Below, in pieces: positions 1 to 45,278 of a stretch of DNA of 64,000 bases. Numbering within the stretch: the stretch's first letter is position 1; each line of letters begins with the position of its first letter. A program made the translations under genes and the position numbers. Below the pieces are notes generated by a model that saw only the letters and a list, made by a program, of their open reading frames with translations, ran no database searches and was not told the origin of the DNA. Origin of the DNA: Tribonema minus (Eukaryota > Sar > Xanthophyceae > Tribonematales > Tribonemataceae); assembly GCA_017506865.1 (NCBI GenBank), contig JAFCMP010000542.1, positions 124,001 to 188,000 of the forward strand. The letters run 5' to 3'.

Positions 1-3000
1 CATGGCGGCGATGCGCTCGCACGCGGCGGCCTCATCGCTCAGCCCCAGCGCGCGCAGCGAGTCTGAGTCATGAGGTCCTGTGCACAACGCTCAGCGTAGC
101 GGCCTCCGCCACCTCCGCCGGCAGCGCGCGCAGCGCGCGGCATGACGCGATCACGCGCAGCCCCTGGCGCTGCATGGCGCGCAGCGCGTGCACCAGCTCG
201 TGCGCGAGGCCGCTGGTGGCAGCGCTCAGCGGCTGAGGGGAGGTCTCGGGGGGCGCCCCCATGTACTTGTGCGCGTCGTTGAGGACGACCAGTTTGTCGG
301 GGGCGCTGTCCAGTGAGCGGAACTGCTCCAGGAGCACCTGCGCGCGCACATGCGTGCGAGGGCAGTGTTAGGCGCTAGCTCCTGCAGGCGCGCCAATGCA
401 GCAGAGGACTTGAAGTAGGAGTGTGGCAGCGCTCGGTGACACGGGGTCTGGGAACAAGCTGTTGCAGAGACAACAGCAGCTTCCGCAACTGCCCAAATGA
501 GCCCGTCTGCAACTGTAAACTATTCAAGGTACTTGTGTCATAGGACCAATCAGTCACATGAAGCTCAGTCAAGTACGGTTGCCATGGTATTTCATTTTGT
601 CGCTAAGGTCGTCAAGCCTCAATGCAGTCATGCTTCTCAAGCAGTGGCGTACCGTGGGCTGGGTCAAAAGATGCGGTGTGGCTATTGCCTGGAGACTAGC
701 ATTTTTATCACAAGCTCCATATCAAATCCAGACTTCTGAAAGTGCTTTGACTGGGATCACCTGGAAGACACAGCTTGCCACAGCTGCTGGCATCAGAGGG
801 TCCACGAGGTCTGCAATCACCACAGCCTTCTCCTGCAACAATTATGCAAGCAACAAGCGCAGTGATTGTCAGTTTGCCATCGTGGCACAGACTGCTTGAG
901 CGTGATCATTCACAGTAGCCGCTGTTCATATACAGAGGGGGTCGCTCCTGAGCGTGCTTTGATTTCCATGGCATCGGCCTCTGAGAGCGCTATGCCATGT
1001 GTGCGGCTTCTTCTTCGAACCTGCATGAAAAACTCTGCAGCACTTTGGTGGCCGACATCATCTGCAAGTGCGTTCAGCAATGTGATGTTTTTGAGTACTG
1101 CGGAGCATCAAGGTGTACCAGCGCGTGGAGCGTTGAGGAGATCCAGCTTCACATAGTTTTCACAAGGATGCGGCATGGAGATTCTGCTAGCAAGCTGGAC
1201 ATCTATCCTCTTTGCTTTTTCGCGCCCTTAGGCGAGAAACAAGAAGAAAAGTAAAGGCTTCATACTTCCGGAGTGTGAATTCATGAGCTGATTTGCTGTT
1301 GTGGCATATTGCCCTCACAAGCCCGCATGAGCATGCTCATTCAAATGTGTTGTGGTTTTATGATAGTCCACTTAGGGCGGTGGAAATTCCCATGTCATCC
1401 CCTGCTGATGATAGGACCCTCGTCACTCTCATAATGCAGCATGCACCGTTTGCTCACTGCATCCCACACCCCACCGTACCAACTATAAACTCTCCAGTGA
1501 CCGCCATACATACATTGAACTTTCTGCCTCTCACACTGATGGAGCTGACGCACCCCACAGCTTGCGTACTCTTGAACTATTCATCAACTGCAAAGTGCAC
1601 CTTGGTCTCGCAGTATAATCACGATCTGGAGCAAAACTGATGAGCTTTTGTGAGGAGCATAACCTTGGCGCACCCATATGTGTATTTTAATAAACATACT
1701 TGACTGAAATTACACTTCAGATACTGGATGATAATTCACCTTGACAATCAGCTCCTCGAGGCACTGAAACTCTGCCGCATAGCGGCCGTTCTGCTCAGAC
1801 TGCCTCACGAAGCAGTCGAGCACTGTGAGCTTCTCTTTGAGAGCCCACGTCTGCGCCTCGGGCAGCTGGGCACCCAGCCCTAGGCATAGGGCTTTGAAGT
1901 CGCTGTAGGCAGGCTTCACACCCGCCTGGCGCTGCATCGTCCTCAGCAGCTCCAGCAGCACCTGCAAGGCCGTCATGCGTCTATGTGAGATATCGACGAG
2001 TATCGTGCGCTGAGCAGCATGCATGACATTGACATTGTATGTACTTTCAGTACTCTCGCTTAGGGCTCAATTGTTTTTTTTTTTTGCATGATGTACATAG
2101 CGTGTCCATCTATGTGTTACGTACCCTGCACAGCGCTCGTGACGACAAGATAAGCAAATGCGGCATACATGCATGCGCACAGTAAGTGCGCCAACCTCCG
2201 TATCATGCGTGGCGCCGTGAAAGTATACGATTTTGCTGTGCTGTGCAAGGAGGCGCGTCTCTGGTAAGTTGTGGGGGGGGCGAGCCCACAATCTTCCAGC
2301 TTTCCCATATCTCACTAATACTGCAGATATTTGTGAATGAGCTCGGAAGCATGTGCTACTACAGCTGCCAGCGCTGTGGTGAGCACTGTGGCCCGGCCCG
2401 CATTCGGGCACGCCCTGATCCTAACCCTAACTCTAGACCTACTCCGCAAGCCAGAAGCGTGCAGCAACGCGCGAAGTACCACGCGCAAACATGCAGAGAA
2501 ACTTCAAGTTGAAGTTACCAGCGAGATGGCGCTGGCGCTGAAGCCGCTGTCGCCGTCGCTCAAGCTAGAAAAGTGCGACAACGCGCAAAGTAAACGTGCA
2601 CAGCAACTTCAAGTTGAACATCGTACCAGCGAGACGGCTCTGAAGCCGCCATTGTGCAAGCCAAGAAACCACATGAGTGCGCACATCAACTTCAAGTTGA
2701 ACCTACCAACGAGATGGCGCTGAAGCCGCCGTTGACGCGCAGCAGCGTCTTGAGCTGAGCCGCGCTGAGGGAGTCCCAGTCCAGCAGCAGCGGGAAGACA
2801 CGCGCGTTTGCGTGGCCGCGGTAGCGCTGCACGCTCTGCCAGTAGAAGTTGGGCGACGCGAGCACTGCCACCCTGTCTACGGCCAGGCCGCCTGCCCATC
2901 CAGAATACAATCGCAAGGTTGCGCGCGTGAAAGTATGAGTATCAATATCGCGCGGCGACTCTCATGTAGAAGTATGCGGCGACAGGGCCAATCGAGCACG

Positions 3001-5680
3001 CGGCGTGTTGCGCGTGTGATGTGAGTATCGGTTGCGCGTCGTCTCTCTCACCTAGAAGTATGCAGCGATGCCTGCTGTTAGTCGCTGCGGAATAAGAACA
3101 GCAGCGAGCATACGTGCATATCCACACTGCCGGTCAATGCCGGGGCACAGCAAGCGAACCTGAGCACTGCCACCAAAATGCGCCGTCAGCCCCCACACAC
3201 AGAAAACAATTGTTCAGCAGAATGTCAGCGTCGTGCTCAATTCCGTGCACCTGTGAAGTTCAAGTGTGCTGTGAAGTTCACGTGTGCTGTGAAGTTGAAG
3301 TATGATATCAGCGCTTGTTGCCCGCATCACACAGACGCTGCGCTGTTGTCATGTCCGAGCTGCAAGCCCTATTTGCGAGCCTGATGCCGTGATTGCACCA
3401 GTGCCCATTTGCCATGCTGGCATGCACACCGTCAATCAGCGCGCCAGCTCCAGCACTGAGCACTGGTGGTTTGTCAACAAACACAAATGTTTAGGGTTAG
3501 TATGGAAACCGCACCTGCCTCTGAGTGAATTAGGCAAAGCGCCATTGCTGGCGCACGTCAAGCCCCGCCAGCGTGCACACCCACAACGTCGCGTCAGAGT
3601 CGTAGTTGACTAGGCGCTAGGGTTAGTCCACAAACCCCACCTACCCTCTCTGTGAACTGAGCAGCGCCATTGCTAGGCGCACGCTGGCACTGTCGCGTCA
3701 GAGTCACAGCTGACTACTGGGGTCATTCCAAAAACCCTACCTACCTACCTGTGAACTGAGCAGCGGCATCGCTCGTCCCCCCAGCGCGCACGCCGGCGCC
3801 GTCACGTGTGCGTCACAGTTGGTCTTATTTCTAAGTCAGAGAAACTCCAGTTCTTTTTCAACTGCCTACCTACCCACCTGTGAACGGAGCAACGCCATCG
3901 CTGGCACGCGTCAACCTCGCCAGCGCGCACGCCGGCGCTGTCGCGTCGGCATCGTAGTTTACTTCTCGTAGGGTTAGTCCAGAAACCCTGAATACTCCAC
4001 TCGCCTACCTACCTACATGTAAACTGAGCAGCGCCATCGCTGGCGCGCGTCAGCCCCGCCAGCGCGCACGCCGGCGCCGTTGCGTCGGCAACATAGCTGA
4101 CTACTTTTGTACATAGTGTTGGTTCAGAAACCCTACCTATATGCCTACCTACCTGTGAACTGAGCAGCGCCATCGCTGGCGCGCGTCAGCCCCGCCAGCG
4201 CGCACGCCGGCGCCGGCGCGTCGGCAACATAGCTGACTACTTCTTGTACATAGTGTTGGTTCAGAAAACCCTACCTATATGCCTACCTACCTGTGAACTG
4301 AGCAGCGCCATCGCTGGCGCGCGTCAGCCCCGCCAGCGAGCACGCCGGCGCCGTCGCGTCGGCGTCATAGTTCAGCACGAGCGCCGCCATGGGCGCCCCC
4401 CCCGCGCCGAGCGCCGCAATATGCGAGCACTGCAGCAGGCAGCCCTCCGCCGCCACGCACACCGTGCGCGCTACATCTGCGGTGTCTGCGCCCAGTACTA
4501 GAAGGCAGAAGGGCTCCTGCGTGTTGAGATAGATGGGGTGGGAGTCGTGCAGGCCCTGGCCGAGCGCGCCCAGGAGCGTCCGCTGCGCGGCCTGCCGGCA
4601 GTTGAGGTTGCGGGGGTTGAAGTTGGAGGCGTGAACGGTTGCGCCGCGGGCGAGTGAGGAAGGTGTTGTGGTTATGCAGGTTTGTGCCAAAGTGGGCTGA
4701 TCAAATGTCACGCCACTGGTCGTGCACCACCTAAAAAGATGCTCCGAAATGGGCGCCGGAAGCCCTTTGCGAGCAAACTTGGTCCTCCACTTGAAATGAG
4801 TGTCCAACACGACAACGATGCTCGGACGATGTTGACAACTGCCAGCGTGCAATATATCTTCTTTAGAATGATTCTCGCAACGGCATTTTATGTGAAGCAC
4901 CAGAAGTAGATCGGGCATGAGTGCATAGGGCAAGTGTGTCCACGCCAGCTACACGAATATTCAAGCCATGCCATGCGTGCGTTGCCCTTGTCGGAGTCAG
5001 TGCCGATGCAAGCCACAATTACAAGGTCGCTGCATCAGTTGAACGCACCACCAGTTATGACAGGGCTCATATTATTCAGAAACAGTGCTCGAAACTGCAT
5101 CAAGCTCCAATCAGGCGGCTAACCAAAACCATGAACGCACCTTCCCTGCTCCAGGATCCGTGAACAAGGGCGCATTGGCACCGGCATTGCCGCCCTCTTG
5201 AAGCTGCGGAAGCGTCAGCAACGAGCTAGCGGGGCCCAAGACATCACTGGGCAGGCCAGCTGACTCGAAGTTGAGCCCGTCATCGTCAAGATCGGAGTGG
5301 CACTCGGATCCTGCTGGGACGGCCTCGTGGCGTTTGAGCATTTCGGCGAAGGAGGGAGCCCCCACGCCGCGAGGATCCGTCGAGGGGCCTGGTTTGGGCT
5401 TGCCATTGGGCTTGTACTTCTTGTGCACAACCCGCATCTCCAATGCCCACCCCACCCTGCGCACCGTTGGCTGGGAATCCACAAAGGCCTTCAGGTTTTC
5501 GAACCCAAACTGTTGGACCTGCGAGTTGGTGAGCTTGTTCGTGCCCACGCTGGCCTGCACAGGCAGGTTGGTCATGAGGACGCCCTCTGGTCCGGCTTCA
5601 TAGACTGCATGCCTCAGTCTTCTGGCCAGCGCTTTCTGCAGCAGCTGCGAGCTGCTCTCGCTCTCGCAGCTAGTGCTCAT
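1..5680 (-). CDS. LOTUS-like / P-loop ATPase-like protein, six exons, runs off the left edge
   Basis: Exons on the minus strand: 5141-5680, 4291-4591, 2707-2891, 1740-1961, 761-832 and 337 to the left edge. All junctions are GT-AG and phases match throughout. The first exon resembles an OST-HTH/LOTUS domain (about residues 14-80), followed by a low-complexity linker. The rest follows, from memory, a eukaryotic P-loop protein family: YLNTQEPFC before the Walker A site, VLASPNFYWQ, PLLLDWDSL, YSDFKA, VVIADLVDP, then VVLNDAHKYMG at the Walker B site and SVVHR. The 24-codon exon 761-832 supplies the strand before Walker B. Where relatives carry a GKS/T loop this protein has GADTADVAR (residues 214-222), and DEAH reads NDAH (460-463), so it may not hydrolyse ATP. 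The frame breaks near 66-80, after SVVHR; a second frame (DSDSLRALGLSDEAAA) continues to the edge. The start is the first Met of exon 1. Exon 2 could begin earlier, because its frame stays open to 4933. Confidence 0.7.
761..832 (-). CDS. 24-codon internal exon of the P-loop-like gene
   Basis: This short exon is bounded by a TTGCAG acceptor and a CAG|GTGATC donor. It reads EKAVVIADLVDPLMP and onward in phase 0 at both ends. It joins exon 4 (ending ELIVK) to exon 6 (starting VLLEQF) without changing frame, and it restores the hydrophobic strand with DLxDP that family members have before the Walker B region. It lies inside 1.4 kb of otherwise unrecognisable intron. Confidence 0.7.
2515..2706 (-). 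repeat. Tandem partial copies of an exon 3' end plus donor (P-loop-like gene, exon 3)
   Basis: The donor end of exon 3, seen on the plus strand as ACCAACGAGATGGCGCTGAAG at 2705, recurs at about 2627 and 2516 in diverged form. The pieces between copies carry the dispersed ACTTCAAGTT motif. The copies lie just inside the intron, downstream of the true donor in the direction of transcription. Confidence 0.75.
3510..4290 (-). repeat. Six-copy tandem array of an exon 3' end plus donor (P-loop-like gene, exon 2)
   Basis: The true end of exon 2 starts at 4291 with CTGTGAACTGAGCAGCGCC. Diverged copies start near 4153, 4015, 3878, 3749, 3650 and 3516, so most are 130-138 bp apart. Each copy carries roughly 70-90 bp of exon sequence, the ACCTACCT donor region and a spacer such as TAGGGTTAGTCCAGAAACCC, which looks telomere-like. 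Divergence tends to grow with distance from the real exon. Confidence 0.85.
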
Positions 5681-6896: not shown

Positions 6897-9800
6897 CTAC
6901 TTGGCCTTTGTTGCCTGCGACCACAGGAACTCGGGGGTCACGGACTTGGGGCGCTCGAGGGGCAGGCCCAGGGCCCTGTCCCAGAAGAGCTGCGAGAGAG
7001 CGCCCATGGCGCGTGAGACGCCAAACAGCACCGTGTAGTAGTCGTGCTGGGTGAAGCCGTAGTGGCAGAGGAGCACGCCGGAGTGCGCGTCGACGTTGGG
7101 CCAGGGGTTCTTGACCTGCAAAGCGGGGGGGGGGGGGGGGGGGTAGGGGGGGGGATACGTTGGCTTGGTATAGCTGAGGTTGCAGATTTGGCCGGGGAGG
7201 GGGAAGGGGGGGGGATGCACTGGGAGCGCGCACATTTACATGAAGCACAGCTCTTTGCGACAGGATGAACATCACGAGAAGCCTGTGTGATCAAGCATTT
7301 CAGGCAGCGTTCTCACGAGATCACATCCTGCACTGCAGACTGCAAGCGGGAGCAAGAAATACATCTGCCAACTTGCTGCTTCGCAGAGCATTTTCATCCA
7401 ATCATCCAAACGCTACAGCAGGGTCCAAGCAGTGCGATGTGATGGCCCCATGAGATCATCAGTTGAGCTAAATGTCAAAGCCAGTGGGCGATGGGAGCCT
7501 GGTACAGCACGGTGCAGATGGTACGGTTCAGTATGAAGCAGGTGCTCAAAACGAAAACATCACATGTGTATGTTTGCACACCTGCTGCTTTGGCATGAAC
7601 TTCTCAACTCGGAGGGCAGCCAGGATTTACGAGCAGCAGCTCTGGCCACATTTACCCCTCTCACTCTCCGATGATGTTGCAACGTTCAATCCTTGCCCCC
7701 CCCCTTCCTAGATATAAAAATTATGTCCTTGACACATGATGGAGCGAACACAAAACTGATGAGTTGATCGCATCGCGTACCTTGCCCAGCTTGGTAAGGA
7801 CACCTGGCACCACCTCGTAAACCGTGCTGCGGCAAGAAATGACAGGCACAAGAAGGCAGGAGGGGCTGTGAGGGCAGGCTGTTGATTGGAGAAAGAGTGA
7901 AATTTGTAGATGTACTTCAGATATCATGTATGGGCCACTGATGCGTAGTGCATCGATGCCATGCCGTGTGTGCCATGCGCTCTGCCATTGTCCGGGCATC
8001 GGCGTTCATGATGCAGTCAATTCTTACCTACCTTTAAAAGTACGCACCAGCACCATCTTGAACCCACTGGCACCACCACTCCCATCCGTGCGTGACCACG
8101 CACAAATACGTACAAACAATAGCGCTACTGTTCTCCGGCCAACTTCAACCATGGCTTTTGTCTGTTTTCAGCAGGCTTTGACTACGTGAGTCACAATGTG
8201 TACTTGATCAGCCACTTTATTCCTAATTTGAGCAGCCAATCAAGGAGTTCCAAGCTACAGCAGCACCAAAATGGGCGATAACACAAGGCTATTGGTAGAG
8301 CGCACGGGAAAGTACACGCGAATGGCATTGTATTGCCACCGTGCCCAAACACCAACTGTCGTTTGTGGCTTGTGCGCAAATCGATGTCAAACTAGGGCCA
8401 TCATCTGGCAGGCGCTTGCATATTACCGTCCTGCCCTAAAAGCGATTGTTGTTTGGGCCTATGATGTGAAATGCACGAGTCACCCGGCAGGTGCTTGCGC
8501 ATTACAATCTTGCAATCAATGTCAAACAAGAGGCCATCATCTGGCAGGCGCTTGCGTAATTACCCTCTAGCGCTTGCGTAATTACCCTCTAGCCCTACCA
8601 GCAATTGGTGTTAGGGCCTGCGCTCACCTGACAATATGAAATAACCGGTCGTCCAGCGGGTGCTTGCGCATGACCCTCTCGCAATCAATGCAAAATAAAG
8701 GGCCATCATGGCAGGTGCTTGTGCATTACACTTTCACGTACCCTAACAGCAACCGTTGTTCGCGGCCCGTGCTCACCTGACAATGTGAAATAACGGGTCA
8801 TCCGGCAGGTGCTTGAGGGCAAACTGCCGCTGTGCCTCGTAGCGCGGGTCCGTCTTGCGCAGGACGGCGTGGCCGTAGCCAGGGATTACCTGCACATACA
8901 GCAGGTATCAACGCAGCAATATGGTTTGAACACATACGGCACTTCGGCTCTGAATTTGCTGGATCAACATGTGCACAGTCGTTTTTTTACAGAAGTAGAT
9001 ATTGTTGAGATACATAGCCAGAGACGACCTGCGCATACGGTAGGTAGTGAAACAGATTTTGCATTTGAACTCATGTAGCACTTTGTCCGTGTGAACCTGC
9101 TGGACAGGGCACTGCAACTGTCGTTTTGATGCTGCCTGTGCAACTTGTTTCTGTTAACGCACAGCCACTGTAATGCAGAAACAGCTGCAGGCAGCGTAAT
9201 GAACCGTAAATGTCGTTCTACTGCTACTTGTGCAACTTGGTTGCTGTAGATGCACAGTCGCTGTGATGCAGGGAAAAAACTTTTGCAGGCAGGCTACCCA
9301 ACTACCGTACCCAGAGCTCAGCGTCAACAGCGCAGGCCCCTCGAAGCGCCAGTGCTCAGTATCCTGAAGATGAGAATCACCACACATTACTTCTATAGGG
9401 TAAAACCTCACATTGAGCACAGCCATTTTTCTGACATGGGGCACAGCCATTTTTCTGACATGAACGCGCCGAGCGCCGCTCAGCAGTGCTCAGAGCACAG
9501 CCAATTTTCTGACATGAAGTACTGAGCGCTGCTGTTCAGCAGTGCTCAGCTTTCAGAAAGTTGAGCCAGATTGTTCTGTTCTGCTCTACCAGTGCTCATC
9601 AGCAACAGTGCTGTTCCCCCTCATGCAGCAGCGTCCAACGCAAACCCTAAAACCGTAGTTAGCAGCGTCCAACACAAACCCTGAAACCGTAGCTGCCACT
9701 GGGTACAGAGCTGAAGCATCACTGCTGCTGCTGCTGCTGCAATGTATTGCTCAACAAATTCCTGACCTAGTTGCTGCTGCTGTTGCCATGTACTGCTCAT

Positions 9801-12800
9801 GAAACCCTAACCCTAGTTGCCACAGGTGCAGAGCGGACGCATCACTGCTGCTGCCGTTTCCATGTACTGCTCATGGTAATCCTAACCCTAATTGCTGCTG
9901 CGTGCTGGCGGCCTCATGCCTCATCGCGGCAGCGCTCACTTTTCCAGAGTTTGAGCGTTGTCAGCGTAAATTTGCCGCTGCTGCTGCTGCTGCTGTTCAT
10001 TGCTCAACAAACCCTAACCCTAGTTGATGCTGGGTGCTGGCGCCTTGCGCTCACCTTTCCGGAGTTGAGCTTTGCCAGCGTGAACTCCTCGATGGTGTCC
10101 TTGTTGCTCAACAAACCCTAACCCTAGTTGATGTGTGCCTCAGCGCTCACCTTTCCGGAGTTGAGCGTTGCCAGCGTGAACTCCTCAATGGTGTCCTTGT
10201 TGACGGGCTTGCCTGCCTTCTTGAACTCCGCCTGCAGCTGCAGGATCCACCCCAGAACCTGCGCAGACAGATAAAACATGCGTCGGCATTGTGAATTCAT
10301 GTGAATGCATGCAAATTTACGTGCAATGTAGAAACAAAGCGCAACTTGACCTGTGCAAGCAGACGCACATTCGGCGAATGCACCCTCTCACAACGAGTTA
10401 AACATGTGAACAACAAGTGTGACTGAAGTGCCACCTGCTGGGTTGCAGAATGAGCAGACACGGCTCGTGTAACATGCAGAAAGAACTCATGCACAGGCAA
10501 AGCAGACAGTGCGACTAGATCAAGTGTGCGTGCGCGTTTCATAACCAGCCTTCCAGGGGTCGCTCACTTTGCCAGGGCCATGGAGCACGCCTGCTAGCAC
10601 ACTTCCTGGTTGGCCAGCCCATGCATGAGTCGCACTAGCGCGCACAGCCCCACCGCATAGGACAGGTACGGGTCGCTGGGCGCAAAAACTTCAAGTATCA
10701 ACAAACTTCAAACCGGAAAACTCCACATTAAAGTGCGCAACTCACCTCCTGGTTGGCCAGGCCGTGCAGGGGGCCCGCCAGCGCGCACAGCCCCGCCGCG
10801 TACGACAGGTAAGGGTCGCTGAGCGTTGAGCCCACAAGGTGCGTGGCGTGCGCCGACGCGTTGCCGCCCTCGTGGTCCGAGTGGATCACCATGTACAGCC
10901 GCATGAGCTCGTCAAAAGTGGGGTCCGTGAACCTGCACTCATGAATTAATTCACTTGTTCAGCACACAGCCAGCAGATAAGTGAATGGATGACCATGTAC
11001 AGCGCATGAGCTCGTTGAACGTGGGGTCCGTGAACCTGGGGGTGCGTTCATGAATTCATTCACGCGTTCACACAGCCAGCAGATACGTGGATGAATGACC
11101 ATGTACAGCCGCATGAGCTCGTTGAGCGTGGGGTCCGTGAACCTGCGGGTGCATTCATGAGTTCATTCACACGTGGGGCCTGTGACCATGCGGATGCATC
11201 CTCCACTCACTCGCTAGTGTGTGGATGACGATGTACAGCTGCATGACCGCTTGAACTCGTCGAATGCGGGGGCGACGAACCTGCCATGTATCAGCACAAA
11301 AACATTGATTCAGGAACTGGTTTCACACGTGTAGTCATACACCTGTCGCACTGAGAGTGAATGGCTGTTCATACATGAAGTACTGTGTCTGCGCCATGCT
11401 CATGCTCAAAGTATTGCGCTCTCAGCGAGTTCAGTCACACAAACACGCAGCTGGTGGCCTCGAGGAAAATCTTCAACTTGACTCATGGTGAACTGACCAT
11501 GGCAGAAGGCATTGCCAACACGACCTCAACGTCGTTTGCACTTGAAGTTTGGTGCTCACGCTGGGCAACTCGTCCCAAATAGCGGCACAAGTTTCCGCAG
11601 TAGACTCATCGGTAATTTGACCGTTCCAGAAGGCATCGATCGTACCTCTCAACATGCCTTGCACTTGATGGCCGGCATCACACCTGTCTACGCCATTTGA
11701 CCCATCCCGCTAACCTTGAAGTGCATCTCCAAGTACCAGCACGCGCTGTACTCACTCACTGACTCACTCACTCACTCACCCGAGCATGCGGCAGAAGTTC
11801 CCGCTGTAGTCCAGGCTCAGGTCCTTCTTCACCTGCCCGTCCGCGTAGCGGCAGCGGTAGATGAGCGCCGCGATCTCCGGCAGGCGCGCAAACACGTTGA
11901 GGATGTCCTCGTACGCGTGCTGCCACAGCTCCTTCTTGTTGACAGTGTGGTACGCCACGGCAAACTTGCTGTCCGTCTGCATGGCCGCCACCGCCGCCGC
12001 GAACTGCGTCATCGGGTGCATGTCCTTGGGGAAGGAGCGGATGAGCGGCTCGATGTGCGCGGGCAGCTTGGACCTGAAGGGGGGGCGCGGGGGCAAAATG
12101 AGTGCGCATCGTCAATTACGGCAGTTACATTGTAGGCGTCATGCGGATGAGGAGCTCAATGTGCGCGAGCAGCGTAGAACTGATGGAGGAGCGAGGCGTT
12201 TGTCTAGGGGTGCCAAGTGTATTCCTCAGAGTTCAGAAGTGCATGTTATAAATATTAGAGGCAACGAGTGTAGACTACACACCACGTTCAAGGTGTAACA
12301 TTCCGCTTCCCATCTATTTTGTACTTGCAAAAAAATGTCTCCATTTTTTCACATGTATGCACCGCAACTCAAGTTGAACCCGCGATGCTGCTCCCTCTAC
12401 ATACTGGCGAGTGCTTACCAATATGTGGACTCTACAGTACAAGCGCAGTACATGCGCAGAACAGGGGCAGCAGGTACCTGGTGCTTAATGCCGTGCCAAC
12501 TTTGTGCTGTACATGTGATCATCGTATTTTTCACGAGATCATCGCTTCAAGAAGCCCTTGGTCAGCTTGTCAGCACTGCCCGAGACCTCATCTCGCTGAT
12601 TTGGCATGACACTGCTTTGAAAAGCGCTGCTGAGAAGCAAGGCTCGCGAGTAAGTGTCACGGACTGCACGTTTCGTTGCCGCTGCAGTGCTTGAATGATC
12701 CCACAATCATCAGGCGCGCAGCGGAGACATCGGATTGATTCAGCGCTTCAATGTACCATTCAGCTGCGCCTCAATTCATGAATTCATGACTGCTGACCCT

Positions 12801-15800: not shown

Positions 15801-15821
15801 CAGGTTCCGGAAAGCCTGCAT
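6897..15821 (-). CDS. CS: Citrate synthase, mitochondrial type, nine exons
   Basis: It condenses acetyl-CoA and oxaloacetate to citrate in the TCA cycle, in the mitochondrial matrix. Minus-strand exons: 15783-15821, 15300-15573, 13694-13793, 11780-12073, 10746-10932, 10151-10258, 8777-8889, 7781-7826 and 6897-7115. They sum to 1380 nt, that is 459 residues plus a TAG stop, close to the roughly 466 of animal enzymes. Family landmarks in order: [17 protein letters not shown] with catalytic His292, [15 protein letters not shown] with His341, [11 protein letters not shown] with Asp396, then [13 protein letters not shown] and LERPKS. The N-terminus ([11 protein letters not shown]) is basic and looks like a mitochondrial presequence. 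An in-frame ATG at 15885-15887 would add 22 residues. Intron 1 has a GC donor (AAG|GCAAGC), the only choice I found that keeps frame. The introns around several exons contain degenerate copies of exon edges. Confidence 0.95.
8375..8776 (-). repeat. Tandem copies of citrate synthase exon 7 3' end plus donor
   Basis: The true exon end and donor read GCTCACCTGACAATGTGAAA at 8771. Diverged versions of the same segment and the following TCCGGCAGGTGCTTG occur around 8622-8680, 8460-8510, 8530-8560, 8395-8425 and 8700-8730. The 8622 copy retains the intact donor CTCACCTGACAAT. Confidence 0.8.
9415..9600. repeat. Short tandem repeat with AGCACAGCCATTTTTCTGACATG units
   Basis: Three near-identical copies of a roughly 23-bp unit (GCACAGCCATTTTTCTGACA) start near 9417, 9440 and 9496. 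They are interleaved with the dispersed motif CAGTGCTCAG. The region lies inside a citrate synthase intron and has no coding signal. Confidence 0.7.
9646..10130. repeat. CCCTAA-type repeats and CTG-rich tracts within a citrate synthase intron
   Basis: Pieces such as AAACCCTAACCCTAGTTG recur at about 9803, 9878, 10009 and 10114, with GCTGCTGCTG runs near 9724, 9770 and 9975. They separate partial copies of exon 6. Confidence 0.75.
9923..10110 (-). repeat. Two degraded copies of citrate synthase exon 6 3' end plus donor
   Basis: The true exon 6 end reads TCACCTTTCCGGAGTTGAGC at 10148. A good copy starts at about 10050 and follows about 55 bp of exon sequence. A more diverged copy lies at about 9936. 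The arrangement has the same polarity as at the other exons. Confidence 0.85.
10560..11285 (-). repeat. Partial copies of citrate synthase exon 5 on both sides of the real exon
   Basis: The real exon is 10746-10932. On the donor side, about 10606-10683 copies its 3' 80 bp (CTGGTTGGCCAG onward) with substitutions. On the acceptor side, three copies of ATGTACAGCCGCATGAGCTC followed by GGGTCCGTGAACCTG lie near 10988-11040, 11095-11145 and 11225-11285. Confidence 0.85.
12125..12195 (-). repeat. Degenerate copy of citrate synthase exon 4 5' end
   Basis: The segment GCGGATGAGGAGCTCAATGT resembles the exon's GCGGATGAGCGGCTCGATGT at 12038. It is followed by a matching GCGCGAGCAGCGTAGAACTG. It sits upstream of the true acceptor. 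Confidence 0.65.
13355..13990 (-). repeat. Degenerate copies of citrate synthase exon 3 edges
   Basis: Around the real exon (13694-13793), the donor-side motif CTGGCGTGAAGGTCCGC recurs at about 13531 and, more diverged, at about 13361. On the acceptor side, 13885-13975 is a weak copy (GTCAGCAGCAGCGAG, then CCAGATGAGAGTGTCGGGC). ACTTCAAGTT-type motifs lie between copies. Confidence 0.7.
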
Positions 15822-27283: not shown

Positions 27284-27343
27284 ACAAGTACTTGCGGATA
27301 GGTATGTAGCTGTAGCATGTAGCACCATGGCGTAGCAGAGATC

Positions 27344-32682: not shown

Positions 32683-32800
32683 GTGGTTGTCGTTGCGACA
32701 CTTTCAGACTGTCATACGACATGTAGATTCCTTACAGCTAGATGCCAATCATCTGGGCTTTTTCGCGCCCTGAGCGAGAATTAATAAAAAGTACATGTAA

Positions 32801-33484
32801 AACACACGCGCCACCGTAGCTGGGCACGACAACGCCCAACCGCTGAGCTTTGTCGACGACGTCTGTGACCGCAACGCCGCTAGCTGTGGGGACTGGCACG
32901 AAACCACGGAATACATACACCGGGAGAAGCTGCACTGAGGCAGAACACTGAGCATTGCTGCAATGTCCGCATGCGCTGCTAAAGGTCACACAGAAGTCAA
33001 CACCTCGCGTGCGCGAGCTACTGCGGTGCACCGGAGGCGTTGCCAGCCGTGGCTATGCTGCTGCAAGGGGGGGGCGTTGACCCCCCAATTTGAACTTGCA
33101 CACATGTACACGTGATTGGGCTGAGAGCACGAGGCCACGTTGAAGATGCTACTGCGGGCGCCACTTCTCTCTCCCAACAGCGCCACCGCAGCCTGCTGAC
33201 AGGTTGCATCTGCGGAGAGCAGCTGTGCGCCCAGGTGTTGTCGACAGCATGTCTTGGCACCTGAACGACACAACACCTGGGCGCACACTGCAAACGCTCT
33301 GTCTAGAAAAGCAAGGCGGCTGCTCAAGCGCTCCACTCGGATTGCTCCGCGGTGATCTTCAACTGTTGAAGACGCTGCCGCGAGCGCCACATCCCCCCCC
33401 CAATGCCCCCGCAGCCTACTAACAGTTGCAACCGCCGCCCGAGAGCAGCAAATGGTCTGTACAGGGGAGAGCGGAAGCGCCCCC
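32801..33484. repeat. Partial copies of the 3' end of the DUF707-like gene in its downstream flank
   Basis: GCTCCACTCGGATTGCTCCGCGGTGATCTTCAAC at 33329-33362 resembles the 3' coding end at 33490-33525 with substitutions. The following GCGAGCGCCAC plus a C-rich segment and GCAGCCT recur near 33157-33200 and 33380-33420. These are two degenerating tandem copies beyond the stop codon. The left part (32801-33130) shows nothing identifiable. Confidence 0.65.
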
Positions 33485-36400
33485 TCACGCGCTCCACTCG
33501 GATCGCTCCGCGGCGATTTTCAACTTTGCGGCGGCAAGCGCCATCTTCCGCTGCACCTCCGCGTAGGTGACGTCGGCGCAGGCGCTGAGCACCTGCTGCG
33601 CCGTCGCGACGCGCGTGCGCTGCGCCTTGCGCTGCCGCCAGGGGGTCCAGCGCCAGCGCGGGTAGAGGCGCCCGTAGGCCTGCATGGCGTCGTCGTCTTG
33701 GGGAGTCTTCTCTTCATTGAGGGGCTGGGCGCCCTGCGTAAGTACAGGTGCGGGGGTGTGTGTGGGGGGGTGGGCGGGGGGGTACAGATCAGTGGTTAGC
33801 AATTGCGTGCTGTGTAGCTTGTGTGTGATTTATGGTTAGAGACACGGCGATGGCGGCTTGCAAAGGGAGGGCCATGGACAGAGCGGACTGCTCGCTAGAC
33901 GGTCATTGGATTTCTAAGGGGAGTGCTGCGGATGATTTGTTGGGGGCCCGCAATCATTTGCCGCAACTTGTATGGGCAAAATTACAAGCGTTGACGCACA
34001 ATATCTCAAGCGCATGGTCACATGCAGCCGTGAAGAAGCGGTGGGCTCAGCAACATGCACGAGCCACTTTCTTCCCTCTGCTTTGCTGCACCCCCCAACA
34101 CCAACACTTCAAGTTGATGCCTTGCCCCTCCCTCGCAAATACCCCTACAGTTGAGGCATGTCAGCATGCAACCTCACCTCCAAGTCCAGTTGAAGTAATG
34201 ACGCCCCGGGCACAGCGACGCAAGCAGGCCTCTCCAAACCGGTAACTTTCTTCTCATACTCCCATGCTGCGGCGCACCAGAAGAGGTCGGGGCCCCAGTT
34301 GGACCCCGTCTGAATGGCAACCTCAGACAGCAGCACCTGCGAGCGCAGAGGATAAAGACAGCTCAGACAGGAATCCTGCACTCGCAATGGGTGCGCCGCC
34401 GCAGCAGCTGTACTGGTGAAATGTTGGACCTCGTCTGGATGGCTACTTCCTGAGGGAGGACCTGCGAATGCGCACGATAAGGACAGCTTAGGAACCACCC
34501 TTCAAGCGGCTTCCGCATCGTAGCAGGTGCAAAGCGCTAATGCACCACCTACTAATGTTGAAGTGCCTTGTGACACTTGATGTGATGAATTGCGTACCAA
34601 GTCTTCAAGTGCATATCAGCAATCACTGTAACTAATGCTGCCTGTGCGTCGAAAATGAACTTAACTCAGAACCACAACTTCAACTTCAACCCACCTCGTC
34701 CAGGAAAAACGCGAAGAAGTCGGTGTTGATGAAGGGCGCCTGCGCGCTCACGTACGCCGTGCGCGCAGCCGCAACTTCAACTTCCTGAAGTAGAACATCG
34801 ATGTCGAAGTCATAGTCACTGTCATAGGGCGGCTCTGCACGTATGAGCCTGCGCCACTGCCGCTGCCGCCAGTAGTTGGGGTCGTTGAGCTTGTGCGCCG
34901 GGTGTTGAAGTTTGGCGGCAGTTTCGTCAGTTACGGACTGAGCACTGTAGACAGCGGGGTGAGCGATGATGGCGGCGCCCTCTTTGAAGCCGAGGGAGTG
35001 AGCAGCGGTGAACGTGGCGAAGTCGAAGGTCTCGAAGGAGAGGCGTTCGTCGAGAAGCCACACGTACTGATACCTGTGGAGTAGTGCAGAAAGTAGCCGG
35101 TCCGAGCGATCAGTTACTGCGGCGTGAAAACCAGTCCTCTAATGCAGCATGTGATCAGCGTGCAGTGGCCGAGATCCAGGTGTGTTTATGCACCCACTTT
35201 TCGGTGAAGCTCTGAAGACTAAGAAGCAGCAAGAGAGGACGTGACTGCAGAATACAAAAGGTCATTAGACCAGACAAGCTCCACGGACCAGACAAGCGCC
35301 TCAATGACTACCATGGCCATAAAAGGCAAAGGCTGGTAAGCTGCAGACCTAATTTCAATGCTGACAACAGCAGCCATGACAAGCTCTTAAACTTTGACAA
35401 GCAACAAAAGGCGCTCATCACACAGGGACTCTGGATAATGCCCACAGTGCCCGTGGAGCAGACTTGTCATGTCTGGTGCACTATTAAGATGAAGGCGACT
35501 TGCCCTACTCATGTGGATTACAGGACTAGAGCTAGGTAGCATGCTCTGGAAGCCAGTGTTAGTGCACTTGTTGATTGGGTGCACAGCACTGCAGCACCAC
35601 GCAGCCTGGTGTGTGCACAGCTTGACTGTGCACTGATTGTACCTACCGCCAAAGACAAATGTTACGGTGCGTACTACTTCAAGTATGCATCATGCATCAA
35701 CTTGAAACCTCACTTGACACTCACCGGCTCAGCAGGGCGCGCAACAGTGGCCACTGCAGAACTTTCAGAGAAGGATCTTCTGCACGCCCATCTTGAATTG
35801 AGACGATGCTGACGCCCTGTGCAGCAACTTCTTCAAGTGCTGTTGCTAGGGTGTCGCTAGAGCTGTCGGAGGAAATGAGCGCCCAGTCGCACTGCGCAAG
35901 TGCAGACAACAGGAGGTAATTGCTCAGCACAAGCAACAAGATTCGACACTTCAAGCGCACGACAGCTTTCGGTGCAGGGGAGGTGAGTGGCACAGACCGC
36001 ATTGTATGTTGGATTCATGCAGGAGTCTACATCAGACAGAATCAGAACAAGATCACGAAATTCAAACGAAGTCAGCAGCATTTGAGCAACCTGATTGGCA
36101 TGCAGTGCTTGCATCAACCTTGGTTGTAACGGCAAGCTGATTTCTCATGGACCTATAGTAAAGGTACATACCGAACTTTAACAATCTGCTGCTCAGTTGA
36201 CGGCACTGTGCAGACTCTGGCAGTGTACTTACTCGTGGACAAAACCCAGATCGTGCACGCTCTGCAACAGTTACTGTTGCAGGCAGATCATGATGCTGGC
36301 CCCAGCGCGGTTGCTTCTTGAGCACCATGGCCCGCAAGCCTGAAAGCTGCTTTGCAGCACCTTGCAGAGCGCAGAGTGTTTAGATCTAGCGCTCGTTTGC

Positions 36401-36948
36401 ACTGATCATATTACTTAGCCATGGCAGTGAGACATGAGGTCAACTTCATTTGGTCGCAGCACAATACCATGCTGCTGGCAGAACCCCCATTTGCTCACCT
36501 TGTCTCCCAGTTCGAGCATATTCCGCAGCAGGTTTTGTCGTACTTGTGGCGTTGAGCCCACGACGCTGGCACAGAGAACCTTCAGCGGGGCCATTGCTGG
36601 GCAGTGAAGCGACCCCATAGCCGGCGAAGGCTCCGCCATGTCGAGCAGCTGCCTGTGGGCGATGCCGACTCGTTGCTGCTGTAGAGTGTTGTAGCTTGAG
36701 CTCGAGCGGAATGCGTGTATCGGTGACGCCTTCTCTACAATGCCGTGGAGCAGCATGAACAGAGTTCTGGAGTAGCCCAGCATGATCAGGCTGACGACCA
36801 AGGCACTGCCGAGCGCCCTGCCGTAGCGTGCGGCGCTCGTCCGTAGCCGCTCCCATCGCGCCTCGGCTGGCCAGCCATGTTGTGCTGTTTTTGCCTCAAA
36901 TATGATCGGGAGCGGCAACAGCTCCTGTGCGCCTTGCTTCTGAGACAT
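33485..36948 (-). CDS. DUF707-like type II membrane protein, five exons
   Basis: Minus-strand exons 36499-36948, 35725-35891, 34695-35073, 34247-34336 and 33485-33733 sum to 1335 nt, or 444 residues and a TGA. The start is followed by a soluble stretch and one hydrophobic segment (about residues 44-71, GSALVVSLIMLGYS), as in Golgi signal anchors. The lumenal part carries motifs I associate with DUF707-like proteins of algae: CDWALISSD (151-159), YQYVWLLDE (207-215, where a DxD-like acidic site is usual), an FFAFFLDEVL strand and NWGPDLFWCAAA (345-356). A glycosyltransferase-like fold is possible; no activity can be asserted. The exon 1/2 join ELGDK|CDWAL and the exon 2/3 join LLSR|YQYVW are both clean. 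The exon 4 donor (AAA|GTTACC) is weak and was chosen because it keeps frame. The gene is divergent from the SPRY-ankyrin gene. Confidence 0.65.
34380..34495 (-). repeat. Copy of an acceptor plus exon 4 5' end (DUF707-like gene)
   Basis: TGGACCTCGTCTGGATGGCTAC, then ACCTGCGAATGCGCACGATAAGGACAGCTTAGGA at about 34426-34494 copies the region 34294-34368 (TGGACCCCGTCTGAATGGCAAC, then ACCTGCGAGCGCAGAGGATAAAGACAGCTCAGACAGGA). It lies about 130 bp upstream of the real exon in transcription order and includes a decoy acceptor. Confidence 0.85.
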
Positions 36949-37273: not shown

Positions 37274-40200
37274 ATGCATGAGATACGGCCCTGTACGCCG
37301 GAGCCGGAGCCCGTGCATGTGGAACACATTCCAGACCCCACGCTGTGCTTCTTGGAGGCAGACCTGGATGAAGGCCTGGTGGTGACTGCGAATGGATGTG
37401 GCGTGAAAGCAGTGCCGACGGACCTTGCTTGCAGAGGCAAAACTGCCTACGTGCAGCTCAATCTCAATGACAGCAACCGTCGCTGGTGCACTTTCAGGTG
37501 CGGCCAATTCTGGCTTGCACATGAAAACTTGTCTACCTAAACAGAACGTGCTAGTCCAGGCGAACCACTGCATAGACTGTAGTTGCTTCTCCCTGAGCAT
37601 AGTTGTATACAAATGAAGCAATTTTTAGGTCAACTAGGCCAAAAAACATGTTGCCGTCAATTCTCACTTCTCATCGCAACGCCGTGACCTGCTGCATACC
37701 CACCATGTGCTCATGAGACAGGATCAAGACACTTGGCGGCGGCAAGGAGCACAGGCACGATGGCGCGCCACGCGTCATCCTCGGACTGGCGCCCCTCATC
37801 AGCAGCGAAGTGCGCACACAAACCATGGAGAGGACCGCCGGGAGCGTCGCGCTCACGGACTCAGCAACAGTCCTGCACAACGGAGCAGAGCTGCCCAACT
37901 TCAACAGCATCGATCTGCAGCACCGTCAGTTTGAAAAGGGCGACGCCGTGTCTTTCGGCTTCGACAGAGCAGAAGGGACCGTGGAGATTGGCAAGAACGG
38001 GGTACTGCTGGGACGGGTGACCCTCTCGGATGGGCTGTTACCGGACCTGCACCCTGCAGTCACCATCTGCAGCGCGCGCGCGGATGTACGTTTTGAGTGG
38101 TGTGCGCAGTGCCCGTTCGTCATCAACGCTCAGTCGCCCGGAGGCATCAGCGGCTCAGCGCCTGCAACTCTGCTGAGCACTGATGATGCAGGTGTGGCTG
38201 GCGTTTCGGGAGGGGGGAGGGAGGCTGACGCGGCAGCGCCGTCACACTCTTCACAGCCTGTCATCGTTGACCAACAATCTGGCTCGGAAACGCAGCCGGA
38301 AAACGCGCTGAGACCATGGTCACGAGGTGGTGGGGGTACAGGGTTGGGCTCGTTTGCGAGTGTCAAGGGTCGCAGCGGCACTACAGGGGAGGCAGGCATG
38401 GAGGAGCCGAGCTATAGCTGCGTGTACGATGCATGTGAGAGGGGGGCGCCGGTGGAGCGGCTTCAGGCAAGTTTCATGGGTATGTATGCAAGTATTGTTG
38501 CAAACACTTACTTCAAGGTATTGCACAAATATGTACTTGAAGGCCTGTGCTGATGTGGTGAGAGTATGTCAGCCGTGCTGGCACTGCAGCGCTGTGGTTT
38601 TGCAGTGCAGCTTTATTCGTCGCACCGTGCAGACAAGTTAGCTTGCGCATCGTAGTCCTGATGTCATCATGGAGTAGTGTCACTTCCATTTTGAGGGGCG
38701 GTAGTGTCACTTCCATGTTGAGGCCGAAAATTGGCCAACTCTTGAGCGCAACATGGTCGCCAACGCACAATGCGTGACTCATTACATCGGTGGACAGCCT
38801 GCGCTCTCTGTCCGGTAAATCTTGCATGCTTAAACGGCAATTGCTCTAGCTTTGCCATGTGCACAACAACAGCAAACGAAATACACCTTGAAACATACCA
38901 ACTGGTCCTGTGCTACAAAGACTTTGCACTGAACTCCAATCCAAAAAGTCAAAGCATGAAGCATGCATGCTTGCACTGACAAATATCTCCCGCTCAGCAG
39001 TGCTCAGGCAGGATGAGCCCATACTGGTGTGACTTGATAGCTGACGACGACAAACTGAACAACTGGCACATTTGCAATGCCTTCTGCTAATCCTGTCGTA
39101 AGCTTGAACTAAGGTCAGGGCCCAGGTGGAGTCGCCTATGAGACAATCGATGTCATCACCTAACACTAATGCTAACCCTAACCTAATTCCGAGCCCTAAC
39201 CCTAAGCCCAAACCTAGACTAGCAATGCTACCTGCTTGGCGTGAGCTATTGTTTCCACCATTTGCTTTTGGCAACTCAAAGCGCAATGAGCTACTGTTCC
39301 ACCACCTGCATTTGGCAACCCACAGTGCTTCTTAGCGGTGTGATGCTTACACGGTGTGCATTGCGCTTGGTCGTTGTGTTCATTGTGCAGGAGCTGCTGG
39401 ATGCAAAGGCCGCCGCGCTTTCCTCCAAGCCACTGCCGAACCCCAGCGCGACCTTCAACCGCCTGTGCAAAACTGTCGAGGGGGTAGTCGTGGAGGGTCC
39501 CCACCCCTACCCCAGCAGCATGAAGCACACCGCATTTGTTACAGTGCCAGAGGCGGCGTGTGTGGCGCTTGTGTTTGATGGGGTGTGCAATGCTACTGCT
39601 GGCGATGCGCGCGTCACCATCTGGCTGGATGAATGGCGAACGCAGCGGTGAGCAGTATCTCTGAAGTTGGCTGACATGACACATGGTGTCTGCAAATCAG
39701 CTGCTTTTTTGTCATGAAGTTGTGCTGTTGTGTAGCACTCAAGAGCGGTTGCATGGACTGATGCATGTAATGCGATCATGGCGTTGCATGTGATGTTGGC
39801 TGCAAACTATTGCCGCTGTTGTCCTGAGTTTGAGGCAGTACTTGTACGTGGTACCCTTAACAATGGAGCCACGCAATACCAGGCAGTCTCTTTCTCCTCT
39901 GATTTTACATTCTGCCACTTCACGCTGTATAACTCGTAAAAGAATGCAAACACCGTATCATGGCGAGCGCAATCAACGAATGACTGTGAACTTCAGTGTG
40001 AAGCCATTTGCACAGGGTGCGCCGATGAGTCTATGTAGCTCTAAGTCATGAATTGTGTGTTTTGCACCATATGTGTGCGTATACAGTTGTTTTGTACGCA
40101 AGTTCCTGACTCAGAATGGCAACTGAGTACAGTGGGTACCTAACCCTAACCCTAACCCTAACCCTAACCCTATTTTCCTACTATTCGACGTCGCGCCCCT

Positions 40201-42749
40201 CCTGCCAAGGGTTAGGGTTAGGGTTAGAATGAGAATGAGGTTTAGGTTTAGGATTAGGGTCAGGATTAGGATCAGGGGTAGGGTTAGTCATGTGCTCGTG
40301 CACGTGCAACTGGTGACATTAAAATTCACAACAATGTCTTCTCTGAGGCCATCGAGTATACTTCGAGGGTTAGCATTGGGGTGCATGACCTCATGACCCA
40401 GATACAGACTGCAGCCGTGTGTCACTACTAAACTCGCTTAATGTACGTTTATCGCTGCCCAATTGCAGCCTGGGCCCGCCTGATGGCTACAAGTGCCTCG
40501 CTGGTGACAGTCACAGAACGGCGCCGTTCCACGGAACAGTGCTGGAACAATCAACGGGGCTGCCAGGCATGGGCAACATTCCGCCGCTGTTTGTGCCACA
40601 AGCCTCGTTTCTTGTGACGTTTCACGCTGACCGGTGGGTCGGCCAGGTATGTAGGCAATGTGGGCTTCATGCCATGTACTTCAAAGTACTTCTGCCATGC
40701 TGATGTCTGGTCACAGCCACAGTGTATGTTTTCTGTCCAGATGGTACAGTTATAAAGACAGTGCACATGACAGTTGAGTACTAAGCTTGAAATGATGCCC
40801 CTGGCCAGATTGTCCAAACTCTGCAGCAATCCGGCAGTTCTGTCACAGGAGACAGCATGCAAGCCATGAGTATTTGAGGCTTCAAATGACAGTGGCAGTG
40901 TGGCATACATACACATGACGTACACCCGTGCAGCTGCTCAATCTGCACTGTCGGCGACGCAGCAGAACTGATCACTCATATGCTTGCTGGCATCAGCAGC
41001 TCAACATCAGCCCACCTACATGATGCGCTTGCTAAGCAATGTGTCTGACGTTCACTGCTCTGTCAGCTTCTTGAGACATCATCACTTGACATCAGCTCAA
41101 ACACAACCGCTCAAGGCTGGCAACTTGCGGTTTGCTGTGGAAGAGCAGACAGTCTGTCCTGACTCGTGTCCATGCATGGAGCGTTTTGGGGTCGACCACG
41201 TCAACATGTCAATGCCAGCAATGTGCTTCGCAGCATGCCACATGGTCCAGCGCAAAACCTCCTCCACTTGGGAATGCAGAAATTTAGCCTCAACTCGAGT
41301 CTCGCATTGAGGAAATTGAGCTTGACCATGTCAACATGTCAGTGCCACCAAAATGTGCCTGACATCATCAGCCTGCCTGATCGCGTCTGCCTCGCCACTG
41401 CTACATACCTACCTGCCACTGCTTCGCACACTCAGGCAACAGACGGCGCCGACTGGGGCTGGCGCGTCGTCGCGTACCACTGCGACAGCGAGCAGCACGG
41501 CTTGGCGCTGTGGCAGCAGGCGCGCGAGCACTGCCACCGTGCAGCAGCGCTCAACGCCCCCGCCCCGCCCCCCCGCCACGGCGAAACCGCCCTGCACGTA
41601 GCCGCGCGCGCAGGCAATCACGCAGCCGTGACATGCCTGTGCAGCAGCGGCGGCGCCGATCTGGTGAATGCGCGGTGGCAGAGCGGCGGCGGCGGCGGCA
41701 CGGCCTTGCACGAGGCTGCGGGGGTTGGGGCGTGCGCTTGTGCGGCAGCGCTCATCGCGGCGGGGGCTGATGTGGCTGTGGCGGACGACTGCGGAGAGAC
41801 GGCGCTGCACGTGGCAGCCAGGTGCGTTGCAGAGGGTGACTCGCATACTTGAAGTAGTACTTCAAGTAATGTTATTTTGCTGGAGGGATTGTGTTGGACT
41901 TCCAACTCATGGTCATGTAGCAAACTGTGCGTGCAACAATTCTAGCCATGTTGGTGGAGAGTGTGATGTGGCAGTACGTAACATTGAGCTGGCTACAAAC
42001 GTGGAGCTTGCGCGAGCTTTACCAAAATTGCTGAGGGCGTTCCTTAGAGTGTGATGTGGCAGTGCGTACATTGAACTGGCTGCACTTATAAGCCTTCAAA
42101 TTCTACCTTGCCTGATGTGAGGAGCAAGCAGGAAACGCTTGAGCACAGTCGCACTGCGCCAGCACATACCTAACGGTCGCACCGTTCACAGACGCCCGCC
42201 ACACTCTTTGTTTCTGTGCAATCAGCTATGGGATATGGGTATGCATCCTTGGCCACGCTGCTGCTGTGACCAATGGCTGACCACAGCGTCACCCTGCATG
42301 CCGCGATGTTTATGGTAAAGAGTACCGCGCCGACACCGCACCCACACCTTGCGTGATTTGAGACGCAACCGTTGATCGCTTCGCGCACCCACACGACAGC
42401 AGTATGCTTAAACCGGTCTCCGTTCGCTGACGCCCGTTGCGTTGCTTTGTCCTTCATATGCAGATACGGGTATGCATCTTTGACCAAGCTGCTGCTGCAG
42501 GCAACATCCGATCACGGCGCCACCCTACTGGCTCTCCGCAACACCAAGGGCAAGACAGCACTTCAACTCGTTCCCCCCGGCTGTCACCCCCTCATTGCCC
42601 TGCTGACACCCGCCGTCAAGGGGAAAAAAGAAGCTCACTACAGGTCCCCGATAAGGGGAAGCAGGCTCAAAGTGCCCGGCAGCAGGGGGTCTGTGGGGGT
42701 GGGGAGGGTCAGTGCTCAGCGATCTGCGGACATGCGCTCCTCTGTTTGA
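37274..42749 (+). CDS. SPRY-domain and ankyrin-repeat protein, six exons
   Basis: Exons 37274-37497, 37722-38466, 39391-39647, 40469-40646, 41436-41821 and 42464-42749 give 2076 nt and 691 residues with all phases matching. The SPRY domain (about residues 32-200) shows GLVVTANGCGVKAV, the join WCTF|RIKTLGGGKEHRHDG, DAVSFGFDRAEGTVEIGKNG and LHPAVTI. The middle (about 325-490) has a beta-sandwich-like piece ending DWGWRVVAYHC, reminiscent of regions in HERC/ZZEF1-type proteins. Ankyrin repeats follow (HGETALHVAARAGNHAAV, TALHEAAGVGACACAAALI, the join LHVAA|RYGYASLTKLLL). These are protein-interaction modules, so an adaptor or scaffold role is likely, possibly in ubiquitin ligation, though no catalytic domain is seen. 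Intron 2 has a GC donor (CAG|GCAAGT); the nearby GGTATGT site would break the frame. The start could lie further upstream. Confidence 0.75.
40138..40300. repeat. Inverted interstitial telomeric repeats
   Basis: About five perfect CCTAAC units (40140-40171) are followed 36 bp later by GGGTTAGGGTTAGGGTTAG and more degenerate TTAGGG-like units to about 40290. The two arrays face each other and could form a hairpin. They lie in an intron of the SPRY-ankyrin gene. A degenerate CCTAA cluster also lies at 39162-39207. Confidence 0.9.
42175..42330 (+). repeat. Copy of the acceptor plus the last ankyrin exon 5' end
   Basis: GGATATGGGTATGCATCCTT, then CACGCTGCTGCTG, mirrors the real exon start ATACGGGTATGCATCTTTGACCAAGCTGCTGCTG at 42464. 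The match extends into the upstream intron (ACAGACGCCCGCC versus GCTGACGCCCGTTGC) and downstream (CACAGCGTCACCCTGC). The copy is about 233 bp upstream of the real exon and carries a stop, so it is degenerate. Confidence 0.85.
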
Positions 42750-45154: not shown

Positions 45155-45278
45155 TAGCCTGGCTATACTGCTATGATTCGAGTGTACTAGAGTAGCCCTA
45201 ACCTCAGACTTGCAACGGACCTGAGGCAGGCAAATCCCTACATTGCGCTTCCCAGAGTGCTTGCAGCAGCTGTAAGAT

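Follow-up and report, generated by a model that had tools for sequence, protein, structure and literature searches.

Minisatellites and other local tandem repeats of introns consist of units arranged head-to-tail, in which some copies have decayed and a period can span several units, and tandem exon duplication copies exon sequence together with its splice sites. Intron gain by tandem duplication is also known: the excerpted text of one report describes a potato case in which the duplication crossed an intron–exon boundary (PMC4974935), and that of another assigns 5 of 31 novel intron positions in Drosophila to this process (PMC2891723). Introners, as characterised in the consulted part of PMC9860276, represent one element copied into many genes; a term search gave nothing on Tribonema. 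The excerpts of PMC7617258, PMC6330051 and PMC12477816 held nothing bearing on the pattern of border copies described below, and no genome-wide, border-anchored form appeared among the matches listed from a literature mostly without subscription journals.

Here we analyse a window, i.e. a whole stretch of 64,000 nucleotides of DNA from the yellow-green alga Tribonema minus (Xanthophyceae), together with 26 further 10-kb stretches of its genome. An earlier note on this window had claimed that exon edges with their splice sites are tandemly copied into the flanking introns or 3' flanks.

Results

Gene Models in the Window

The window carries five curated multi-exon gene models (Table 1). The product of the citrate synthase (CS) model is 100% identical over 459 aa to the NCBI Tribonema minus protein P0001, therefore the splice choices for this gene match an independent annotation; the identical protein also agrees with the GC-AG intron that follows the exon 1 donor at 15783. 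The LRR model and NCBI P0122 share the first exon, the acceptor of exon 2 and the stop, and they part at the exon 2/exon 3 junction (23063-24207), where P0122 has 21 residues and our model has one. These extra residues are absent from three aligned relatives (Chrysoparadoxa, Ectocarpus and Ascophyllum), which favour the shorter model, and the junction is possibly mis-annotated in P0122.

The P-loop-like gene, named by the label of the earlier note, matched no Pfam family in the Pfam search; its model has a single metagenome homologue (36% identity over 54%), and its 3' end may extend outside the window. The label DUF707, given to the gene at 33485..36948, could not be confirmed, as this gene has no Pfam match at E<=0.01, while the ankyrin repeats were confirmed (Pfam ankyrin, 1e-14).

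Elsewhere in the window, a 740-base direct repeat (26544-27283 and 31879-32618, 99.9% identical) lies at both ends of a reverse-transcriptase element with RVT_1 within 28999-32682 in the Pfam search; the pair may stem from a truncated LINE copy that stands in tandem ahead of a complete copy. An imperfect palindrome of 785 bases (45271-46056, 72% self-complementary) is possibly a hairpin element, and interstitial telomere-like CCCTAA/TTAGGG tracts occur within introns at 40139-40287 and 23075-23388.

Table 1. Genes and exon-edge arrays of the window, with the positions of exons and copies.
Feature	Position	Strand	Exons or copies	Remarks
P-loop-like gene	85..5680	-	exons 5141-5680, 4291-4696, 2707-2891, 1740-1961, 761-832, 85-337	open frame across GT-AG sites
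Citrate synthase (CS)	6897..15821	-	9 exons: 15783-15821, 15300-15573, 13694-13793, 11780-12073, 10746-10932, 10151-10258, 8777-8889, 7781-7826, 6897-7115	
LRR gene	16135..25029	+	exons 16135-16455, 22690-23063, 24207-25029	NCBI Tribonema minus P0122
DUF707-like gene (label of the earlier note)	33485..36948	-	exons 36499-36948, 35725-35891, 34695-35073, 34178-34336, 33485-33733	open frame, GT-AG sites
Ankyrin-repeat gene	37274..42749	+	exons 37274-37497, 37722-38466, 39391-39647, 40469-40646, 41436-41821, 42464-42749	
P-loop exon 2, 3' edge array	3538..4372	-	copies 4153-4232, 4018-4096, 3878-3959, 3749-3820, 3650-3683, 3538-3607	76/80 to 58/69 matches
P-loop exon 3, 3' edge array	2447..2734	-	copies 2627-2654, 2533-2559	self-BLAST and finer search
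CS exon 3, 3' edge array	13244..13718	-	copies 13532-13551, 13361-13385	
CS exon 5, 5' edge array	10879..11174	-	acceptor-carrying copies 10983-11035, 11092-11142	
CS exon 5, 3' edge array	10600..10825	-	copy 10604-10682	66/79 matches
CS exon 6, 3' edge array	9676..10202	-	copies 10055-10106 (50/52), 9941-9970	
CS exon 7, 3' edge array	8379..8815	-	copies 8686-8721, 8628-8666, 8517-8554, 8464-8497	
LRR exon 2, 5' edge array	22337..22732	+	copies 22403-22449, 22504-22546, 22599-22633	GCAG before each
LRR exon 2, 3' edge array	22982..23309	+	copy with donor 23143-23224	77/82 matches
LRR exon 3, stop-codon end array	24947..25694	+	copies 25086-25168, 25243-25315, 25385-25465, 25540-25612	
DUF707-like gene, stop-codon end array	33323..33525	-	copy in 3' flank 33324-33389	53/59 matches
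DUF707-like exon 4, 5' edge	34423..34449	-	weak copy, 23/27	more sensitive search only
Last ankyrin exon, 5' edge array	42232..42526	+	upstream copy 42233-42295, AG gone	48/63 matches

Arrays at Exon Edges

Self-BLAST of the whole window (matches of at least 40 bases, period 40-1000, E<=1e-4) revealed 18 local arrays, 12 of which hold a single curated exon edge, with at least one such array in each of the five genes. The claim that all five multi-exon genes carry edge copies was thus borne out, as was the range of one to six copies per edge, with six at P-loop exon 2. Weak copies of CS exon 4 (on both sides) and of the 5' edge of DUF707-like exon 4, both named in the earlier note, were found by a more sensitive search only. 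Splice sites account for ten of the 12 edge arrays and gene ends with a stop codon for the other two, so the duplicated feature is the coding/non-coding border and not the splice site as such. The other six arrays comprise two intronic ones (9116-9292 and 41958-42084), one in the LINE ORF (30757-31431) and three in the 43-64 kb region, where no gene is annotated and whose arrays were left out of the counts.

The ten splice-edge arrays span exon–intron borders that already existed, and the CS protein product is unchanged despite the edge copies, as its identity to the NCBI protein indicates. Arrays are recognisable in 10 of the 24 introns of the five genes and supply 16% of the 24.3 kb of intron bases. 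The proposed expansion of introns therefore stands as a contribution; a role as the main cause goes beyond these data.

Enrichment at Borders in the Window and the Genome Sample

In the 26 stretches, the exons are predictions of a gene finder whose sole training set was the five curated genes of the window. In leave-one-gene-out runs, the top three of 36 settings recovered 16-17 of 29 exons exactly (40-45 predicted), with a base sensitivity of.82-.90 and a precision of.87; the chosen setting, with a start/end penalty of -6 and a splice penalty of -6.5, falls between the scored grid points. For the null, each duplication unit was re-placed wherever protein breakage is not expected, and its chance of crossing one exon edge was scored. 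The main count leaves out five TE/satellite arrays (window 30757, L003 3631, L022 1, L024 307 and L019 4350) and 13 ambiguous stretch arrays (coding, two edges, contained or over-deep exons).

Exactly one exon edge was held by 12 of the 14 arrays tested in positions 1-43,000 of the window, against 3.0 (uniform) or 3.9 (GC-matched) expected, and by 50 of the 70 testable arrays of the stretches, against 16.0 or 19.1; none of 100,000 simulations for the stretches was as high as the observed 50. The corresponding numbers were 44/64 with four ORF-dense stretches omitted (12.6 or 15.3 expected), 43/73 under a stricter exon filter (11.9 or 14.7) and 52/73 under an earlier array-length null (22.1), in which the five TE/satellite arrays were kept and 14 ambiguous stretch arrays set aside. 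Copies of exon edges thus lie at borders beyond chance both in the window and in the 26 further stretches. This placing of repeat units against a null, a check proposed in the earlier note, gives a border excess of about three times chance, and the term "genome-wide" used there holds in the sample of stretches. The anchoring at exon–intron borders is confirmed as a position above the GC-matched null; an active border-seeking process goes beyond these data, and duplication also affects gene ends that have no splice site.

Two stretches are peculiar in their own right. L001:1-10000, at the start of the 2.45-Mb contig C1, has 71% GC and long ORFs over 92% of its length, unlike the other stretches, and L022:1-3744 is a long satellite-like array with a step of about 237 bases and 94-96% identity.

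Sides of the Exon on Which Copies Lie

The position of copies relative to the exon was assessed independently of the arrays with 50-base probes, at a threshold set to a 0.5% rate for unrelated flanks. Probes from exon 3' ends matched the downstream flank in 9/25 cases in the window and 36/149 in the stretches, and probes from 5' ends matched the upstream flank in 5/25 and 25/153. On the wrong side, the matches were 0/25 and 8/153 for 3' ends upstream and 0/25 and 6/149 for 5' ends downstream. Exon-middle probes gave 0/18 and 2/94 upstream and 0/18 and 2/88 downstream (4/218 pooled). Hence the rule that copies of 3' ends lie downstream and those of 5' ends upstream, as stated in the earlier note, is upheld by 75/352 own-side versus 14/352 wrong-side probes (p about 1.5e-12), with 3' ends matched somewhat oftener than 5' ends (45/174 vs 30/178, p=.05). 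The rule is largely forced by selection: it is what ordinary tandem duplication leaves behind, and no special mechanism is needed.

Build of the Arrays

The median array period is 141 bases (5-95%: 77-361), and most units measure 90-260 bp. Of the 58 single-pair arrays, 22 show a match over 90% or more of the period and 36 over a smaller part; the copies abut (gap within 15 bp) in 15 of the former 22. In the P-loop exon 2 array, Tandem Repeats Finder gives positions 3869-4370 as 3.6 head-to-tail copies of 138 bases. The arrays are thus local tandem repeats with head-to-tail, abutting copies.

Full-unit arrays number 42 at edges and 17 in the interior, and partial-match arrays 28 and 6; at identities of at least 85%, 17/19 partial-match arrays and 8/12 full-unit arrays, i.e. 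the young ones, lie at edges (p=.005 for the latter). Full-unit pairs at 60-70% identity were found six times at edges and never in the interior. Several high-identity pairs share about 35-80 bp of exon and 4-8 bp of intron, and in stretch L002 the spacer keeps weak homology, as judged by eye. The arrays are locus-specific, with 7/105 matching another fetched locus. The short words ACTTCAAG / CTTGAAGT recur in the window and the stretches and are present within some array spacers.

Decay of the Copies

Substitutions were sorted at 26 edges with two or more copies (about 431 sites per codon position). Changes private to one copy are distributed as 68/67/87 over the codon positions (p=.17), while third-position bias is seen in the changes separating all copies of an edge from the real exon (5/4/21) and in those common to only some copies (7/3/29). 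This indicates that the copies drift without detectable coding constraint, that the exon evolves mostly at third positions, which supports the predicted exons as coding, and that different copies hold different past states of the exon. The raw mismatches amount to 144/126/313 when copies are set against the real exon and to 133/124/222 when they are set against each other; the third-position richness of the latter may be explained by copies having been taken at different times, and some coding constraint would look similar. The mean difference between copy and exon is 8-12%, and 9/97 copies contain an in-frame stop. Their proposed divergence with distance is a weak tendency: the nearest copy is more exon-like than the farthest at 16 of the 26 edges and less so at 10, with mean identities to the exon of.899 and.874.

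Decoy splice sites are indeed left behind. Among copies that pass a complexity filter and reach within 3 bases of the exon edge, GT or GC is kept in 50/60 donors (42 GT, 8 GC; 48.1 expected from copy identity) and AG in 24/32 acceptors (25.4 expected); the unfiltered values are 63/86 donors (50 GT; 68.1 expected) and 33/45 acceptors (36.0 expected). The splice dinucleotides are neither clearly guarded nor purged and are lost at about the neutral rate. These patterns suggest that the copies are non-functional and decay neutrally.

Exon-Derived Part and Spacer

In 54 donor copies, identity is.88-.91 across the exon part,.93 at +1 and.81 at +2, and falls after +6; 30 acceptor copies have the same profile. 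The intron side was compared ungapped, so the fall there is partly due to indels. When the 50 bases past the site were aligned with gaps in 97 copies, the median identities were.62-.72 by exon-identity class, with a mean of.56 for random sequence. At 40 splice edges, in pairs that cover both parts, K is.238 in the intron and.073 at exon codon positions 1+2, a ratio of 3.3 (95% CI 2.3-4.7), whereas a neutral tandem copy predicts about 2, a value exceeded at 29/40 edges. Copies diverge from one another (62 pairs) by.149 over the exon part and by.333 over the flank, a comparison biased by the copies having been found by their exon part. The LRR stop-end array is without spacer excess (4/55 exon, 48/490 flank).

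Spacers could diverge more because the exon-derived part is refreshed when it recombines with the functional exon. As a cause of this difference, selection acting on the copies is disfavoured by the substitution patterns described above.

Discussion

We suggest that local head-to-tail tandem duplications, mostly with units of 90-260 bp, are frequent in Tribonema minus. Duplications within an exon would mostly be harmful and lost. A unit spanning one coding/non-coding border would leave that border in place beside the exon body, and the spare copy would fall into the intron or 3' flank and be tolerated, so that 3' ends with their donors pile up downstream and 5' ends with their acceptors upstream. 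The functional exon, which selection keeps constant, would be copied repeatedly over time, and perhaps it also refreshes nearby copies by gene conversion or unequal exchange. This combination of tandem duplication, a selection filter and the exon as a repeated source and possible refresher is the explanation that we prefer, with somewhat better than even confidence.

The filter by itself predicts too few edge arrays: uniform duplication with filtering gives about 27%, and 71% was observed, therefore an additional exon-linked rate of duplication or persistence must be assumed. Since young full-unit arrays already lie at edges in 8 of 12 cases, persistence alone is not enough. We infer that duplications arise more often, or persist for longer, in exons and close beside them; a higher rate there combined with selection against duplications within exons would do to produce the border excess, as would recombination seeded by the constant exon. 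A stronger version, in which borders are true hot spots where duplications start and the exon is a master copy that seeds and rewrites dead intron copies, is possible and, on balance, doubtful. If it were correct, introns would be partly built from past exon states.

The closest rival states that duplication is uniform over the genome and that edge arrays merely stay visible for longer, the exon part of one copy being conserved. Edge copies do have one slow partner, and many edge arrays are old, as the six edge and no interior full-unit pairs at 60-70% identity testify. The edge excess stays, however, when exon parts are masked and interior arrays masked equally, with 29/73 edge and 8.6/24 interior arrays surviving (all arrays included; 27/70 and 7.8/22 by subtraction without the five TE/satellite arrays), and the position of the young full-unit arrays also speaks against this reading, which we disfavour and regard as unlikely. 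With survival after masking similar at edges and in the interior, pure detection bias was rejected as the cause of the border excess. Less likely again is that each copy arose as a short templated insertion of exon end and splice site instead of a tandem unit. The partial-match arrays and the high-identity pairs with only a few shared intron bases would suit such an origin, and short templated copying is possible behind some copies, but full-unit arrays form the majority, the P-loop array is built head-to-tail, and the spacer in L002 keeps weak homology.

Selection for the copies as decoy or alternative splice modules is very improbable. It would agree with matches that often extend only through the exon part and splice consensus, and with the third-position richness of copy-versus-copy mismatches; it disagrees with private changes lacking significant codon-position dependence, with the near-neutral loss of splice dinucleotides and with the copying of stop-codon ends, and constraint on coding or splice sites was rejected accordingly. 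An origin by insertion of introner-like elements or transposons, with long target-site duplications, finds some accord in direct repeats that in some cases flank unlike sequence, yet the same sequence in many genes was not seen among the fetched loci (7/105 arrays), so an element family of this kind is hardly credible. An assembly artefact deserves just as little credence: local repeats are typical assembly errors, but the average difference of 8-12% from the exon, and private changes even over codons beside shared ones biased to third positions, are not expected from misjoined reads.

Under the preferred reading, in which tandem duplications are filtered by selection, the elementary events that tandem-duplication models of intron change invoke would be common enough in the Tribonema genome to be counted. 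The edge copies resemble snapshots of a coding exon, each bearing its own time stamp, and may represent an internal clock. They also offer a natural test of splice-site choice, in which real sites compete with similar copies, the nearest of which is typically 50-190 bases from the real site (10-90%). Finally, they are a hazard for annotation: the gene finder took six window copies for exons.

Compared with minisatellites, the Tribonema arrays share the head-to-tail units, decayed copies and multi-unit periods, and differ in that one unit of each edge array holds a functional exon edge and in that the arrays cluster at coding borders. As in tandem exon duplication, exon sequence is duplicated along with splice sites, but the spare copy in Tribonema is a part of the exon with the splice site of that edge and carries no coding constraint.

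The introners described in the consulted part of PMC9860276 are likewise intron-related repeated sequences across many genes, whereas the Tribonema arrays are locus-specific. The nearest parallel is intron gain in potato and Drosophila, which, in the excerpts of PMC4974935 and PMC2891723, also proceeds by local tandem duplication reusing existing splice signals. There a new intron arises, in one potato gene and at 5 of 31 Drosophila positions, while in Tribonema the duplicate falls into an existing intron, leaving the CS product unchanged, and the process is recurrent, multi-copy and spread across the sampled genome.
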